Assembly: GCF_027943725.1 (NCBI RefSeq)
Contig: NZ_AP025696.1
Location: 1,279,501 to 1,343,500 of the forward strand
Origin: Nitrosophilus kaiyonis
GTDB taxonomy: Bacteria; Campylobacterota; Campylobacteria; Campylobacterales; Nitratiruptoraceae
Length of the DNA stretch: 64,000 nt
Reading direction: 5' to 3'
The notes under the pieces were generated by a model. That model worked only from the letters and a program-made list of their open reading frames with translations, ran no database searches and was not told the DNA's origin. Positions 25,869 to 32,310 of this stretch are shown in pieces. Both the position numbers and the translations under genes were made by a program. Positions within the stretch are counted from its first letter, which is position 1, and every line of letters begins with the position of its first letter.

Positions 25869-26216
25869 TTGAGACTTATTTTATATCTTTTTATATTTTC
25901 ACAAATTTTTGCAGAAGACTCTTTTATTACTAAATATGAATATTCAAAAATGCTTTATGAAAATCCAAGAGGAATAGGATGCAATAAATGTCATGGCAAA
26001 TATGGTAAAGGCAAAATTATTGCAAAATATAAAAAAAGAAAAAAGATATATAAATTAAAGGCGCCAGATATAACAAAAGTTAGTTATAAAAAATTTTATG
26101 ATGTTTTGAATAGAAGGAAAATAAAAGGTGCAATGCCAAGCTATTTTTTAACAAGAAGCGAAATAAAAGCTTTATATTTTTATATTAAATCAAATAGGAA
26201 AAAAGATGGTTTTTGA
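25869..26216 (+). CDS. Small monoheme cytochrome c
   Basis: 115 residues starting at a TTG with an AGAGG site 6 bases upstream. A short signal peptide (about 1-15) is followed by one heme c site, CNKCH (38-42), in RGIGCNKCHGKYGKG. A likely distal methionine lies in GAMPSYFLT near residue 90. It is a periplasmic electron carrier of the class I type. It overlaps the following CitE-like gene by 11 bases, so they are co-transcribed, although a metabolic link is not obvious. Confidence 0.85.
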   Translation: MRLILYLFIFSQIFAEDSFITKYEYSKMLYENPRGIGCNKCHGKYGKGKIIAKYKKRKKIYKLKAPDITKVSYKKFYDVLNRRKIKGAMPSYFLTRSEIKALYFYIKSNRKKDGF

Positions 26217-27147
26217 TGAAAAAAGTATTAATATTTTAGAAGAAGCTATAAAAAATAGAAATTCTAATTCTCTTGATAGTTTTATAATGCCTGTTAAGAG
26301 AATAAAAAATAGAAAAATTAATATTAAATCTGCTTTAATGGTTTCAGCACATCAGGTTAAACATATGAATAAACTTGACTCTTTAGATGCTGATATTGCA
26401 ATAATTAATCTAGAAGATGGAGTTAGCAAAGAGTTAAAACCTATTGCTTTAAAAATGGCAGCTGTTTTTTTAAGCAATATAAAATCTTCAAATAGTATGC
26501 TAGTTGTTAGAATAAATCCTTTAGATGAGGGAGGTATTGAAGAGATAGAGTTTTTAAATCGATTTAAGCCAGATGCTATAAGAGTTCCAAAAATAAGATC
26601 AAAAAATGATGTAAAAAAAGCTTTAAGATATATTGATAAAGATATAGATATTCATCTATCAATAGAGACAAAAGAGGCTTTTTTAAATATTGAAAAACTT
26701 AAAATTGATGATAGAATAAAAGTGTTTTATCTTGGTATTTTAGACCTTTTAAGTGATCTGAATATCTATCAAGATATATTAAAAATTTCAAATCCTACAA
26801 TTGATTTTATATTGAGTAAATTTCTTATTGAGACAAAATCGATAGATGTTTTTCCAATCTCTTTTGTCTATCAAGATTATAAAAATCTTGAAGAGTTTGA
26901 GAGATGGTGTATTTATGAAAAAGATATGGGATTTGAAGCAAAGGGGTGTATTTCACCAAAACAGGTTGAAATAGCAAATAGAATCTTTTCTCCATCAATA
27001 GAGATAATAAAAAAAGCCAAATATATAAAAGATATTTTTGAAAAGATGAGTAAAGAGGACATAACTGGATTTAAAGATGAAAAATATGGCTTTATAGATG
27101 AGCCGATATATAAAGATGCACTCAATATTCTTAAAAAATATAGCTAA
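26206..27147 (+). CDS. HpcH/HpaI aldolase / CitE-like acyl-CoA lyase family protein
   Basis: 313 residues of the TIM-barrel CitE/malyl-CoA-lyase family. The segment AIINLEDGVSKE contains the typical acidic ligand, VVRINPLDEGGIEEIEFL the conserved Arg, and DIHLSIETKEAF the second acidic metal ligand. GFEAKGCISPKQVEI is the CoA-pocket-like region. The closest functional analogues are citrate lyase beta and malyl-CoA lyase, but no CitD/CitF partners are present, so it may act alone on a CoA thioester. It overlaps the cytochrome gene by 11 bases. Confidence 0.82.
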   Translation: MVFDEKSINILEEAIKNRNSNSLDSFIMPVKRIKNRKINIKSALMVSAHQVKHMNKLDSLDADIAIINLEDGVSKELKPIALKMAAVFLSNIKSSNSMLVVRINPLDEGGIEEIEFLNRFKPDAIRVPKIRSKNDVKKALRYIDKDIDIHLSIETKEAFLNIEKLKIDDRIKVFYLGILDLLSDLNIYQDILKISNPTIDFILSKFLIETKSIDVFPISFVYQDYKNLEEFERWCIYEKDMGFEAKGCISPKQVEIANRIFSPSIEIIKKAKYIKDIFEKMSKEDITGFKDEKYGFIDEPIYKDALNILKKYS

Positions 27148-27202: not shown

Positions 27203-27790
27203 ATGTTGATTTTCAAAGAGATAAAAATTGATGATCCATTAATGGAAGAAGTTTATAAATTTAGATGCGAAGTTTTATGTGAGGAACTTCAGTATTTTAA
27301 TAAAAAAAAATTTCCCGATAAAAAAGAGAAAGATTTGTATGATAATAATGCTGATCATTTTGTAGCATTAGATGAAAAAAATAATTTAATTGCATATTTA
27401 AGAATTATTTATTATAGTGAAAATGGTTTTCCTTTGGAAAATAATATGCAAATTTTTAAAGAGTATGAGAAAATCCCTAAAAAGAAAATTGCTGAGTTAT
27501 CGAGAATGTTTATCAAAAAAGAGCATAGGAAAATAAAAAAAAGTTTATATATTTTAGAAAATTTTTTAAAACTTTTTATTTATAAAAAAGCTAAAGAGAA
27601 TGATATTGAATATTTTTATGCAACTTTACAAAGTAATTTTTTAAGACTTATGAAAATTAGAAATGTGCATTTTAAAATTATAGGCCCTCTTCAAGAGTAT
27701 GGTGGAAAAAGATATCCTACAATATTATCTATTAAAGATTTAGAAAAAGATAGAGCTGATTTGAAAAAAATGTATGGAGATAAAAAGTGA
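27203..27790 (+). CDS. LuxI / N-acyl amino acid synthase-like (GNAT-fold) acyltransferase
   Basis: 195 residues from the ATG at 27203 (GGGA upstream); a TTG at 27182 is an alternative. The spaced residues of the autoinducer-synthase superfamily can be picked out: FRCEV (R21), the acidic pair in EKDLYD (D44, D47), AYLRI (R67) and AELSRMFI (E98, R101), then FYATLQSNFLRLMK and a closing FKIIGP. Phe and Trp positions usual in LuxI are Leu and Tyr. FeeM-type and PEP-CTERM-associated acyltransferases share this pattern. It may make an N-acylated amino acid or homoserine lactone. It overlaps the TonB-receptor start by 4 bases. Product not determinable. Confidence 0.72.
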   Translation: MLIFKEIKIDDPLMEEVYKFRCEVLCEELQYFNKKKFPDKKEKDLYDNNADHFVALDEKNNLIAYLRIIYYSENGFPLENNMQIFKEYEKIPKKKIAELSRMFIKKEHRKIKKSLYILENFLKLFIYKKAKENDIEYFYATLQSNFLRLMKIRNVHFKIIGPLQEYGGKRYPTILSIKDLEKDRADLKKMYGDKK

Positions 27791-29832
27791 AAAAATTTTT
27801 AGTATTTTTAATTCTTACTTTATTACTGTTTGCTAAAGAGAATAATCTTTTAAAGCAGCTAAGTAAAGATATTGAAAATATTGGCCAAATTGCAACTATC
27901 TCAAAAGAGAATGTTTTTTATCAGCCCTTTATTGTTTCTGTGTTTAAAGGAAAAGATTTAGAAAAACTTGGTATTTCAAATCTAAAAGAGGCTTTAGAAC
28001 TTATACCGGGTGTTGATATTGCAACTGATAATTTTGATAACAAAACTGCAGTTTTTAGAGGTTCCAATCCATACGCATATGGCCAATCAAAACTTTTTAT
28101 AGATGGAATAGAAGTAAATGATGTTATGCTTGATTCTTATAGCTCTTTCATGAGTTTTCCAATAAATCTTATTAAAAGAATTGAAGTTATTAGAGGTCCA
28201 GGTGGAAAACTTGATGGGGTAAATGCCTATGCTGGATCAATTTATGTAATAACTTATGCTGAAAAATTTAAATTTGATAAAAAAAATGATGAAGTTTTCT
28301 TAAAATTTGGCTCATACAGATATAAAATGGGAGGATTTAAAAAATATTATAAAAATAATGATTTTGAAATTTTTACAGATTTTTATTATCAAAGAGATGA
28401 TAAATATATAAAAAATGGGTATGATGCGGCAAATACTGGCATATATGGAGTTAATAAAGCATTAACAAGAGAAGATGATGCTCCATTGTGGCTAAGAAAC
28501 TATTCACTTGGTATGAGTATGAAATATAAAAAATTTTCTTTAAAAGAGAGATTTGATTATTATAAAAAAGGGATGGCATATGGCTCAAATTATATGTATC
28601 CTAGAGATGAAGACTATTTTAAACATCCAATATCATATTTAGAAGCTTCATATAAAGATAGATTTAAATCTTTATATACAACAATAAAAGCAGGTATTAA
28701 ATGGGACGATTTTCATATGTTAACAAGAGCAGCTTATGAAGGTTTTGTGAATAACAAATTAAATAATCCTAATGAAATTATAGTTTATAAAAATGGCTTT
28801 TTTGCAGAGGATGAAACAAGACAAAGAACTCTTTATCAATCAACTTTTTTTGAATATAAAGAGATTCCAAAACATAAGATAAAGTTTGGATATATAATCT
28901 CTAAAGAAGAGACATATTTTCAAATGACTAAAAATACAGATAGAGATGATGAAAACAATACTCAACTTGTTGATTATAGTGAAAGTTATCCATTTTTTGA
29001 TGAAGATGCAAAAAGGTATGGATATATTTTATCAATTGAAGATAAATTTAAATATAATGATTCAATTTCATTAATTTATGGATTAAATTTAGAAAACAAT
29101 ACCCATATTGATCTTCAGATAAATCCAAGAATAACTCTGCTTTATAAAAAAGATGATCAAAATATATTTAAATTTATGTATAGTAGATCTCATAGATCAC
29201 CATCTTGGCAGGAACTCTATACAAAAAATAATAGATCAAGAGTAGGAAATAAAGATTTAAAACCAGAAATTGTAAATGCATTTGAGATCTCTTATGTTAA
29301 AAGATTTTCAATTGATAGCTATTTTCAAACAAATCTATTTTATTTAATAAATAAAGATCAAATCAATAAAATAAATGAGGATAATCAATATAGAAATGCC
29401 CAAGATACAGATATATATGGATTTGAAACTGAATATATGGGTATGATTAATGATAAAACAAAGCTGTATCTAAACTACTCTTTTGTTTATGGAAAAGATA
29501 ATGATGGAAACAGTTTGCCAAATGTTGCAAAACATATGGCAAAAGCATTTTTAATTAGAGAAATTACACCAGAGTTTGATATTAATTTTATAGGGAAATA
29601 TGTAGGTAAAAAGAATAGATATTATTATGATTATAGGGAAAAACTTGATGATTATTTATCTTTTGATTTAAGTTTAAACTATACAAATCTAAAAAATAAA
29701 TATACTATCAATTTTGCACTGAAAAATATATTTGATGAAGATATAAGATATCCTTCTGAACCATATACTTATGATGATGATTATAGACAAGAGGGAAGGC
29801 ATTTTTTAATATCATTTAATAAAGAGTTTTGA
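27787..29832 (+). CDS. TonB-dependent outer-membrane receptor
   Basis: 681 residues starting at GTG inside the previous gene. Signal peptide about 1-15. The plug domain (about 45-150) has LKEALELIPGVDIATD, AVFRGSNPYAYGQSKLFIDG and IKRIEVIRGPGG; a beta-barrel follows, with RSHRSPSWQELYTKN and NLKPEIV-type motifs (NKDLKPEIVNAFEISY). It ends in phenylalanine, as barrels do. It imports a ligand across the outer membrane with TonB energy. Lying between a LuxI-like enzyme and a c-di-GMP protein, it may also sense. Ligand unknown. Confidence 0.93.
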   Translation: MKKFLVFLILTLLLFAKENNLLKQLSKDIENIGQIATISKENVFYQPFIVSVFKGKDLEKLGISNLKEALELIPGVDIATDNFDNKTAVFRGSNPYAYGQSKLFIDGIEVNDVMLDSYSSFMSFPINLIKRIEVIRGPGGKLDGVNAYAGSIYVITYAEKFKFDKKNDEVFLKFGSYRYKMGGFKKYYKNNDFEIFTDFYYQRDDKYIKNGYDAANTGIYGVNKALTREDDAPLWLRNYSLGMSMKYKKFSLKERFDYYKKGMAYGSNYMYPRDEDYFKHPISYLEASYKDRFKSLYTTIKAGIKWDDFHMLTRAAYEGFVNNKLNNPNEIIVYKNGFFAEDETRQRTLYQSTFFEYKEIPKHKIKFGYIISKEETYFQMTKNTDRDDENNTQLVDYSESYPFFDEDAKRYGYILSIEDKFKYNDSISLIYGLNLENNTHIDLQINPRITLLYKKDDQNIFKFMYSRSHRSPSWQELYTKNNRSRVGNKDLKPEIVNAFEISYVKRFSIDSYFQTNLFYLINKDQINKINEDNQYRNAQDTDIYGFETEYMGMINDKTKLYLNYSFVYGKDNDGNSLPNVAKHMAKAFLIREITPEFDINFIGKYVGKKNRYYYDYREKLDDYLSFDLSLNYTNLKNKYTINFALKNIFDEDIRYPSEPYTYDDDYRQEGRHFLISFNKEF

Positions 29833-30374
29833 TGAAAAAAGTTGTAGCAATACTTTTTTTATTAAACTTATCGCTATTTGCATATAAATATAATGAATTT
29901 TTGATAAAAACTCAAGCAGCATTATTGCCAAAAATTATGCTACTTGATAAAAAATTTGCTAATAAAACAGTAGACAGTAAGGTTAAAATTGCAATTATAT
30001 TTAATGAGAATGATATAAATACTGCATTTTTATTAAAAACATTTATAACAAATTATTACGGAAGTGATTTTGAAAATTATATGCTTGTTATAAAACTAAA
30101 AAAAGTAGAAGATTTTTTAAATTCAAAAGAAAAATATAGCGCAATATATCTCTTAAAATTATCTGAAGATAACTATCAAAAAATTTATAAAAAAATAAAA
30201 AACAGTAATATCTATAGTTTTGTCTATGATAAGGATGATTTAAAATATGGATTTCTTTTTTCTATAGATTTAGAAGAAAAGCCAATTATTTTCATGAATA
30301 AAAAAGCTATTAATAAAAATTTTGATTTCATTGAGCAATTATATACTTTAGTAAGGCTAATAGATAATGTTTAA
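29832..30374 (+). CDS. Periplasmic YfiR-like (DUF4154-like) protein
   Basis: 180 residues with a signal peptide (about 1-16). ATG 29832 overlaps the receptor stop (TGATG) and is preferred to a TTG one codon upstream. The core is alpha/beta (VKIAIIFNE, YSAIYLL, NIYSFVYD). The C-terminal pattern, a short strand then IIFMNKKAINKNFDF and a Leu-rich helix, resembles the YfiR/DUF4154 ending with its invariant Asn. YfiR is a periplasmic regulator of a membrane diguanylate cyclase, and the next gene encodes just such a protein. It overlaps that gene by 8 bases. Family assignment is tentative; a solute-binding-like protein is the alternative. Confidence 0.55.
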   Translation: MKKVVAILFLLNLSLFAYKYNEFLIKTQAALLPKIMLLDKKFANKTVDSKVKIAIIFNENDINTAFLLKTFITNYYGSDFENYMLVIKLKKVEDFLNSKEKYSAIYLLKLSEDNYQKIYKKIKNSNIYSFVYDKDDLKYGFLFSIDLEEKPIIFMNKKAINKNFDFIEQLYTLVRLIDNV

Positions 30375-32310
30375 TATAAATAGGTCCATATCAAATAAAT
30401 TACTATTTTATTTTTTGATTATTTCGGTAACTATTATCTTGTCAAATTTTTTTATTTTTGAAAAGTTAACAAAAAATGCATTTTTAAAAACAGAAAAAGA
30501 GAAAGCCCAATTAATTGCAAATACTGTAAAACCATTTATTGAACTTGATATCTATTTAGGTCTTGAAAATAATATAGATAAACTATTAAAAGATCTTATT
30601 AAAAATGAAAATATTCTCTCAGTAAAAATTTTTAAAAAAAATAAACTTTTTAAAAAGATTAATAAGTTTAATTCTATTTCAAATTTCAAAAATTCGATTT
30701 TTATACAAAAAAAGCTTTTTCAGCCAAATTCAAAAAAAATAATCGGTAGTTTAGAAATTATATATTCTAGTAAACATTATGAAAATCTTGTAAAAACCTA
30801 TCAAAAATATTTGATACTATATATTTTAGTTACTGGCATTCTTTTGCTTCTTTATGGTTTATATTTAACTAAAACCATAAAACCATTAACATTAATTGCA
30901 AAAGATCTCAAAAAATATACTCCTAAGAAAATTTTGAAATTTGATTATATAAAAAATAAAAAGGATGAAATTGGTTCAATTGTAGATGCTCTTAAAAATA
31001 TGCAAGAAAAAATTTTTGAATATTCAAAAAAACAAGAAAACATAAATAAAATTCTTGAAAAAAAAGTATTAGAAAAAACAAAAGAGTTAAGAGATCAGCT
31101 TTATATTGATTCATTAACAGGACTACCAAATAGATTTTCACTTTTAGAAGATATTAAATCTATTAAAAGTGGAAGCTTGATTATTATGAATATCGATGAT
31201 TTTAAAGAGATAAATGACTATTTTGGACAAGAAACTGGAGATAAGATATTAAAAGGTTTTGCTAATAGATTAAGAAATCTTATTAAAACAAAATATCCTA
31301 AAATTTATAGATTATCTGGAGATGAATTTGCACTATTGTTTGATAAAAAACTTTCTAATAATGATCTGACACATTTTATTGAACTCCTTTTAAATAGTAT
31401 AGAAAAAATGACATTTTTTCATCAAGAAAATGAATTAAATATAAGAGTAACGATAGGGGCTACAAATAATATGCAATCCCCTTTAGAAAAAGCAGATATC
31501 GCTTTAAAATTGGCAAAAAAAGATAGATTGCCTTTTAGATTATATCATGAAAATTTTAAAGTTGAAACCCAATATAAAAATAGTATGAATTGGGTTAAAA
31601 AGATAAAAAAAGCTATAGATAAAGATAAAATTGTTCCATATTTTCAGCCTATATATTCTTTAACAAGCGAAAACATAAAAGGTTATGAGTGTTTAATGAG
31701 ACTAATTGATGAAAATGGAAAAATTATAACTCCGTATAATTTTTTAAATATTGCAAAAAAAAGTAGATTCTATCATGATTTAACAAGAATAGTATTTGAA
31801 AAAAGTTGTAAACATTTTAAAGATATAGAATGCATATTTTCATTTAATCTATCAATAGAAGATATTCTTGATGAAAACACTATTGAATTCATTTCGCAAA
31901 CTATAAAAAAATATAGTGTGGAAAAAAAGATTATATTTGAGATTGTTGAATCAGAAGGAATAGAAAATTATGAAGATATTGCAGATTTTATACAATGTAT
32001 GAAAAAAATTGGAGCAAAAATTGCTATTGATGATTTTGGAAGTGGCTATTCAAATTTTGAATATTTAACAAAATTGGATATAGATTTTATAAAAATTGAC
32101 GGTTCATTAATAAAGGATTTAGATAAAAACAGTAATGCATTGATTGTTGTAGAAACGATAGTAGGTTATGCAAAAAAAAGAGGAATTAAAACAGTTGCTG
32201 AATTTGTTAATAATAAAGATATTTATCAAAAAGTCAAAGAATTAGATATAGATTATGCACAAGGATTTTATTTAGCCAAGCCAAGTGATAAAACAGTTCA
32301 TAAGTGTTAA
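30367..32310 (+). CDS. Membrane GGDEF-EAL c-di-GMP signalling protein
   Basis: 647 residues. TM1 about 12-30, a periplasmic sensor segment (31-145), TM2 about 148-167, a HAMP-like linker and coiled coil (170-242). The GGDEF domain (about 245-395) reads SGDEF at 317-321, preceded by NIDDFKEIN. The EAL domain (about 415-640) reads ECL at 441-443 with the catalytic features FNLS, FEIVESE, DDFGSGYSNF, IKIDGS, AEFV and YAQGF all retained. Phosphodiesterase activity is therefore likely; cyclase activity is possible. It is coupled to the YfiR-like gene. Control by a periplasmic partner is inferred. Confidence 0.9.
   Translation: MFNINRSISNKLLFYFLIISVTIILSNFFIFEKLTKNAFLKTEKEKAQLIANTVKPFIELDIYLGLENNIDKLLKDLIKNENILSVKIFKKNKLFKKINKFNSISNFKNSIFIQKKLFQPNSKKIIGSLEIIYSSKHYENLVKTYQKYLILYILVTGILLLLYGLYLTKTIKPLTLIAKDLKKYTPKKILKFDYIKNKKDEIGSIVDALKNMQEKIFEYSKKQENINKILEKKVLEKTKELRDQLYIDSLTGLPNRFSLLEDIKSIKSGSLIIMNIDDFKEINDYFGQETGDKILKGFANRLRNLIKTKYPKIYRLSGDEFALLFDKKLSNNDLTHFIELLLNSIEKMTFFHQENELNIRVTIGATNNMQSPLEKADIALKLAKKDRLPFRLYHENFKVETQYKNSMNWVKKIKKAIDKDKIVPYFQPIYSLTSENIKGYECLMRLIDENGKIITPYNFLNIAKKSRFYHDLTRIVFEKSCKHFKDIECIFSFNLSIEDILDENTIEFISQTIKKYSVEKKIIFEIVESEGIENYEDIADFIQCMKKIGAKIAIDDFGSGYSNFEYLTKLDIDFIKIDGSLIKDLDKNSNALIVVETIVGYAKKRGIKTVAEFVNNKDIYQKVKELDIDYAQGFYLAKPSDKTVHKC

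Follow-up and report, generated by a model that had tools for sequence, protein, structure and literature searches.

The window analyzed here, i.e., the whole stretch of 64,000 nucleotides, belongs to the complete 1.77 Mb genome of Nitrosophilus kaiyonis and contains a cassette of four genes with overlapping ends, which is preceded by two genes on the same strand and followed by a convergent tonB. The features are the following:

25869..26216, + strand: cytochrome c gene, upstream of the cassette
26206..27147, + strand: HpcH/HpaI-aldolase/citrate-lyase-like gene, upstream of the cassette
27203..27790, + strand: LuxI/FeeM-superfamily N-acyl synthase of 195 aa, assigned by profile, conserved residues, and predicted fold
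27787..29832, + strand: TonB-dependent outer-membrane receptor of 681 aa, with plug, barrel, and signal peptide
29832..30374, + strand: YfiR-like periplasmic protein of 180 aa, with a signal peptide and no cysteines, assigned by fold and by DUF4154 matches of its relatives
30367..32310, + strand: GGDEF-EAL inner-membrane sensor with two TM helices and a periplasmic domain of ~120 aa
32319..33182, - strand: tonB, convergent to the cassette; the genome has one other TonB_C gene

The open reading frames confirmed the initial placement of all four cassette genes and of the tonB that converges on them. According to the ORF coordinates, the synthase and receptor genes overlap by 4 bases, the receptor and YfiR-like genes by 1 base when counted from the ATG (4 from an upstream TTG start), and the YfiR-like and GGDEF-EAL genes by 8 bases, values close to the 3-8 bases originally reported. 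A gap of 8 bases separates the GGDEF-EAL gene from tonB. Promoter-like sites at the cassette were not more frequent than in shuffled sequence, and no terminator was found there. Genome-wide, 4 plug domains, 15 matches to EAL, and 2 C-terminal TonB domains were counted. An additional TonB receptor plug outside the window has two EAL-domain genes at a distance of at most 7 kb (G000:C1:516869-523710), possibly a further receptor-linked c-di-GMP module.

The product of the first gene had been attributed to the autoinducer-synthase superfamily from a spaced residue pattern, and profiles, alignments, and predicted structure all agreed with this attribution. The protein passed the Pfam model Autoind_synth (PF00765; 27.6 bits, cut-off 24) and also scored above cut-off against Acetyltransf_5 (38.5 bits). 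Its best NCBIfam model was TIGR03694 (1.9e-28; 99.5 bits, under the curated cut-off of 111.95), which was matched by all 28 members of the synthase family (best 6.4e-31), and the FeeM model PF21926 gave 15.8 bits, under its cut-off of 27. Of the three models proposed at the outset (Autoind_synth, FeeM-type, and TIGR03694), only Autoind_synth was therefore exceeded. The single sequence had no matches in the PDB, and the family profile retrieved mainly AHL synthases (TofI 9.8e-6, LasI 1.4e-5, RpaI 1e-3), with non-LuxI GNATs at 0.004 or weaker. Likewise, the fold nearest to the AlphaFold model (pLDDT 95.3) was that of LasI (Z 18.9, 2.7 Å over 180 residues), followed by TofI (Z 18.8), BjaI (17.9), and FeeM (17.7); other GNATs reached a Z of at most 15.6, and no unrelated GNAT family came out best. 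Residues R21, D44, D47, R67, E98, and R101 are found exactly at the positions first assigned to them. Alignments of 28 and 38 sequences revealed that R21, D44, D47, E98, S100, R101, and R109 are invariant, with R67 kept in 23/28 sequences of the wide alignment and 38/38 of the other, and E42 in 36/38. The family carries the pattern R, E-x-D-x-x-D, R, E-x-S-R, and the match to the superfamily is, by the profile scores, far above chance. On the basis of profile, invariant residues, and predicted structure, the protein is a LuxI/FeeM-superfamily N-acyl synthase. A toxin-antitoxin reading was considered and rejected, and so was protein acylation, for which we know of no precedent among enzymes of this fold.

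Such an enzyme could be part of canonical quorum sensing with an unusual receiver, in which an acyl-homoserine lactone (AHL) would be made from SAM. The Autoind_synth score, the close folds of LasI, TofI, and BjaI, and the conserved E-x-D-x-x-D and E-x-S-R motifs are all in line with this explanation. AHL synthases presumably share two widely conserved aromatic residues, Phe28 and Trp34. Both belong to the active site of the AHL synthase TraI (PMC9654057). However, the corresponding positions in the window synthase are L25 and Y31 and vary among its relatives, so that, judged by its sequence, the enzyme is not a canonical AHL synthase. Moreover, FeeM, which is not an AHL synthase, lies within ~1 Z of LasI, and the LuxR ligand-binding domain (PF03472) was detected in 0/26 cassette genomes, including that of the window, by a search whose control found the domain in E. 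coli. We thus consider an AHL product unlikely. These data assign the enzyme to the superfamily without singling out a substrate class. The lack of a LuxR-type regulator and of an exosortase, first noted for the neighborhood, holds for the whole genome, where neither the LuxR ligand-binding domain nor exosortase (PF09721) was found; exosortase is present in only 3/26 cassette genomes.

Other acyl synthases also occur in the phylum. FeeM-type synthases (PF21926 over cut-off) were identified in 25/397 Campylobacterota genomes. In 18 of 20 such loci examined (L061, L062, L172-L191), the flanking genes include a 7TMR-DISM histidine kinase, an OmpR-type response regulator, or both. These loci pair an acyl synthase with a dedicated sensor in a second way, distinct from that of the cassette. 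In Aliarcobacter faecis, a TIGR03694 gene beside an OmpR-type regulator has been listed as a putative toxin (PMC9235176), a label that, in the light of the FeeM-sensor pairs, may be a misreading.

The product of the second gene has the plug and barrel of an ordinary TonB-dependent receptor as well as a signal peptide, and a domain search detected neither STN nor a separate signalling domain in it. Among solved structures, its sequence profile comes closest to CirA (colicin I receptor) and BtuB; in NCBIfam it scored best, always under cut-off, against siderophore, heme, and B12 receptors. CirA and BtuB import siderophores or B12, which counts against a receptor for a signal and would suit a cassette devoted foremost to nutrient scavenging: the enzyme would acylate a siderophore-like molecule or metal binder, the receptor would re-import it, and the YfiR and EAL proteins would pass news of its uptake on to c-di-GMP. 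The adjoining tonB points in the same direction; it is present and convergent as first described, but adjoins the cassette only in the Nitratiruptor family. On the other hand, an ORF-level look at the flanks revealed no recurring siderophore-synthesis or periplasmic permease genes, and we know of no siderophore acylases with the synthase fold. The many receptor-YfiR-GGDEF modules that lack a synthase further suggest that sensing is the common theme. Uptake of an acylated chelator is therefore an improbable main function.

The third protein was recognized through its relatives and its fold. Alone, the window sequence gave no relevant match in Pfam or NCBIfam, and the profile of its family retrieved nothing from the PDB sequences; fold comparison alone found YfiR. 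DUF4154 (YfiR/HmsC-like) was matched by 6/25 relatives (best 9.8e-6), and the top structural match of the model (pLDDT 93.1) was P. aeruginosa YfiR (4zhu_B; Foldseek 7.2e-7; Z 15.6, rmsd 2.8 Å over 144 residues). The original YfiR-like label is upheld by these DUF4154 matches and by the predicted fold, the window sequence by itself being insufficient. Two conserved cysteine pairs of P. aeruginosa YfiR have been implicated in stability and redox control (PMC4655355), and the window protein has 0 cysteines and its relatives 0-2. Going by the predicted structure, the third cassette protein is a cysteine-free YfiR relative.

The fourth protein has TM helices near residues 7-25 and 149-167, and HAMP was found in 18/23 of its relatives. 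Nine EAL residues (E441, N494, E525, E528, D555, D556, K576, E612, and Q632), which we take to be the catalytic positions by correspondence with RocR, are invariant in 23/23 proteins. The GGDEF motif reads SGDEF in the window and ranges over SGDEF, GGDEF, GSDEF, AGDEF, and SADEY in the family, and no RxxD I-site was present in the aligned GGDEF stretches of the 23 proteins. CHASE8, the periplasmic domain of YfiN, was absent from the Pfam families listed for these 23 proteins, one of which matched CHASE5 (8.9e-5). Since the EAL residues are invariant whereas the GGDEF motif drifts, the output is most likely c-di-GMP breakdown, which would make this protein a phosphodiesterase and not a YfiN-like cyclase; cyclase activity is possible in some family members. 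In genome G057 (L034:12211-14160) and in L097, this gene is divided over two frames, which may reflect a broken output protein or a sequencing error.

We analyzed the distribution of the cassette in 397 Campylobacterota genomes from 68 genera. A synthase match was obtained in 35 genomes and 12 genera. Among 30 strong synthase loci (window locus excluded), the receptor is directly downstream in 26, and one of the four receptor-less loci ends at a contig edge. YfiR comes next after the receptor in 24/24 strong loci with enough contig, and the GGDEF-EAL gene follows in 18, being located divergently upstream in 6 loci of one genus. Two peptide patterns were also run against 84,980 species, a scan that outside the phylum samples only enzymes carrying both peptides; it returned 41 loci, all of them from Campylobacterota or from bins with matching sequences. 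These belonged to Nitratiruptor, Hydrogenimonas, Sulfurimonas, Arcobacter, and relatives, and the receptor was downstream of the synthase in 37/41 (the genomes being partly shared with the 397-genome sample). Overlapping gene ends were observed in many cassette loci. The initial annotation knew of no such combination in Campylobacterota, but it is not singular: synthase, TonB receptor, and YfiR are widespread there as a unit, and the genes are neighbors in relatives. The genes up- and downstream differ between genera, which indicates that the cassette is conserved and not the locus. Cytochrome c and HpcH/HpaI-aldolase-like genes precede the cassette at every locus of the Nitratiruptor family and in that family only, and are probably outside the signalling core; they sometimes overlap the synthase gene.

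YfiR-like matches were found in 48/397 genomes. Operons of TonB receptor, YfiR, and GGDEF(-EAL) protein without a synthase are common in Campylobacterota (L136-L163), with outputs of ~420-800 aa. In the receptor tree, all 53 synthase-linked receptors fell within one clade of 61 (53 linked, 8 not; SH-aLRT 100), and the YfiR-linked receptors outside this clade are without a synthase. Label changes on this quick tree, in which some joins are unsure, numbered 6 versus a mean of 20 after shuffling. Synthase and receptor distances were correlated (rho 0.87, 0/999 permutations), although common descent alone would raise rho; shared ancestry inflates the Mantel and Fisher values. In the 397 genomes, 29 had the synthase and a strong YfiR relative, 2 only the synthase, and 4 only a strong YfiR relative. 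The two with a synthase only, G074 and G294 (where the contig ends), count against a circuit that runs through YfiR.

Linkage on the chromosome was not always kept. G291 and G367 each have the synthase at a separate place from a receptor module of the synthase-linked clade. In these two genomes a carboxyl-methyltransferase-like gene (PF04072) lies immediately upstream of the synthase. A leucine-carboxyl-methyltransferase-like gene of the same family directly precedes the synthase in L050/L104, L052/L102, and L100, the last being an Arcobacter MAG locus in which the PF04072 gene and the whole cassette form five genes together. This neighbor is a hint that the synthase product may bear a carboxylate, which would be the case for an N-acyl amino acid. 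Another possible explanation is that the synthase product is an N-acyl amino-acid or amino lipid for the envelope, the receptor, YfiR, and EAL proteins monitoring envelope state or an unrelated ligand, with the operon serving only for co-regulation. Some synthase relatives are indeed weakly similar to ornithine N-alpha-acyltransferases (best 1.8e-8), and YfiBNR is thought to respond to periplasmic signals such as envelope and redox changes (PMC4655355). However, only one receptor clade takes part in the pairing, which is maintained across different genomic settings, and the two genomes with unlinked copies have kept both synthase and receptor module. An envelope lipid is, in our judgment, distinctly unlikely.

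Some genomes have lost part of the cassette. The receptor-YfiR-EAL module is present in G129 and G378, where no synthase was found when sought, and G254 has the receptor module together with a 70-aa synthase remnant. These three genomes, which count against a circuit with a self-made signal, fit eavesdropping and also a receptor with a different ligand. Several Sulfurimonas loci have lost the synthase and retained the receptor. Within the Nitratiruptor family, only the EAL gene is left behind the same upstream genes in G328, YfiR and the EAL gene are left in G278, and other genes occupy the cassette position in G029 and G036; the joint loss of synthase and receptor in G278 and G328 may be one deletion. 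The Sulfurimonas losses would be expected if synthase and receptor were functionally unlinked, as chance neighbors or as the remains of an old operon structure. Yet their adjacency is conserved over several families and settings, the receptors form a single clade, and gene ends overlap in many loci, and a lack of any functional link is very improbable.

The reading that we favor, with a probability of roughly 0.55 that rests on architecture and evolution and not on chemistry, is a LuxR-independent circuit in which a self-made N-acyl signal is perceived by the outer-membrane receptor and relayed through YfiR to a phosphodiesterase. The LuxI/FeeM-like enzyme would move a fatty acyl group, with acyl-ACP or acyl-CoA as the donor, onto the amine of a small molecule, either an amino acid or a SAM-derived group, and the N-acyl product would leave the cell. 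At the outer membrane this product would be bound by the paired TonB-dependent receptor, which, once liganded or energized, would alter the free periplasmic pool of the YfiR-like protein, by analogy with YfiB in YfiBNR. The YfiR-like protein would in turn control the GGDEF-EAL protein through the periplasmic domain of the latter, and the EAL domain is predicted to hydrolyze c-di-GMP. By the same analogy, the liganded receptor could sequester YfiR and so release the EAL protein, leading to lower c-di-GMP. In this way, a signal of cell density or diffusion would set the switch between sessile and motile states. The chemistry of the product, its role as receptor ligand, the contact between receptor and YfiR, and the sign of the response are all points that we infer. 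The initial suggestion of an acyl signal that passes from outer membrane to periplasm to c-di-GMP gains weight from the conserved linkage, the single receptor clade, and the co-occurrence in trans.

In the acyl-type quorum sensing known so far, the receptors are mainly LuxR proteins inside the cell. If the proposed circuit is true, a LuxI-like enzyme coupled to an outer-membrane receptor and c-di-GMP represents a wiring different from LuxR sensing, in an ecologically important group, the vent and sulfur-oxidizing Campylobacterota, for which no acyl-signal system was described in the literature searched. It would also provide the first candidate ligand class for many as yet unassigned receptor-YfiR-GGDEF modules and make the role of the exosortase-type "orphan" acyltransferases testable. 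The component families are all known, but their combination is apparently undescribed: a search of the open literature, itself a fraction of all that is published, found no account of it. There is a real chance that the cassette represents a new wiring class of acyl signalling. The broader claim of a new class of bacterial communication (LuxI-superfamily signal, dedicated TonB receptor, YfiR relay, c-di-GMP phosphodiesterase, and no LuxR), with the synthase losers as eavesdroppers, falls a little short of even odds.

Among known systems, the cassette resembles YfiBNR/HmsCDE/DgcN of P. aeruginosa, Yersinia, and E. coli in combining an outer-membrane component, a soluble periplasmic protein of YfiR fold, and an inner-membrane GGDEF protein with periplasmic and HAMP domains. 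YfiBNR, however, has the OmpA-like lipoprotein YfiB where the cassette has a TonB-dependent receptor, and a YfiN-type cyclase without EAL where the cassette has a GGDEF-EAL protein with intact EAL residues and no I-site; the YfiR relative of the cassette has neither of the conserved cysteine pairs, and the synthase is an addition. With the LuxI-type enzymes LasI, TofI, and BjaI, the synthase shares the fold (Z about 17.8-18.9) and the R, E-x-D-x-x-D, R, E-x-S-R residues, at ~15% identity and without the F28/W34 positions or a LuxR partner. The N-acyl amino acid synthase FeeM likewise shares fold and superfamily, but the cassette enzyme is under the PF21926 cut-off and its operon partners are a receptor, YfiR, and an EAL protein. 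The PEP-CTERM/exosortase-associated acyltransferases of TIGR03694 are the best NCBIfam match of the window synthase and are matched by all members of its family, whereas the window synthase is under their cut-off and exosortase is rare in the cassette genomes. Finally, the synthase-less modules have the same receptor, YfiR-like, and GGDEF or GGDEF-EAL genes in one operon, but their receptors mostly fall outside the clade linked to the synthase.
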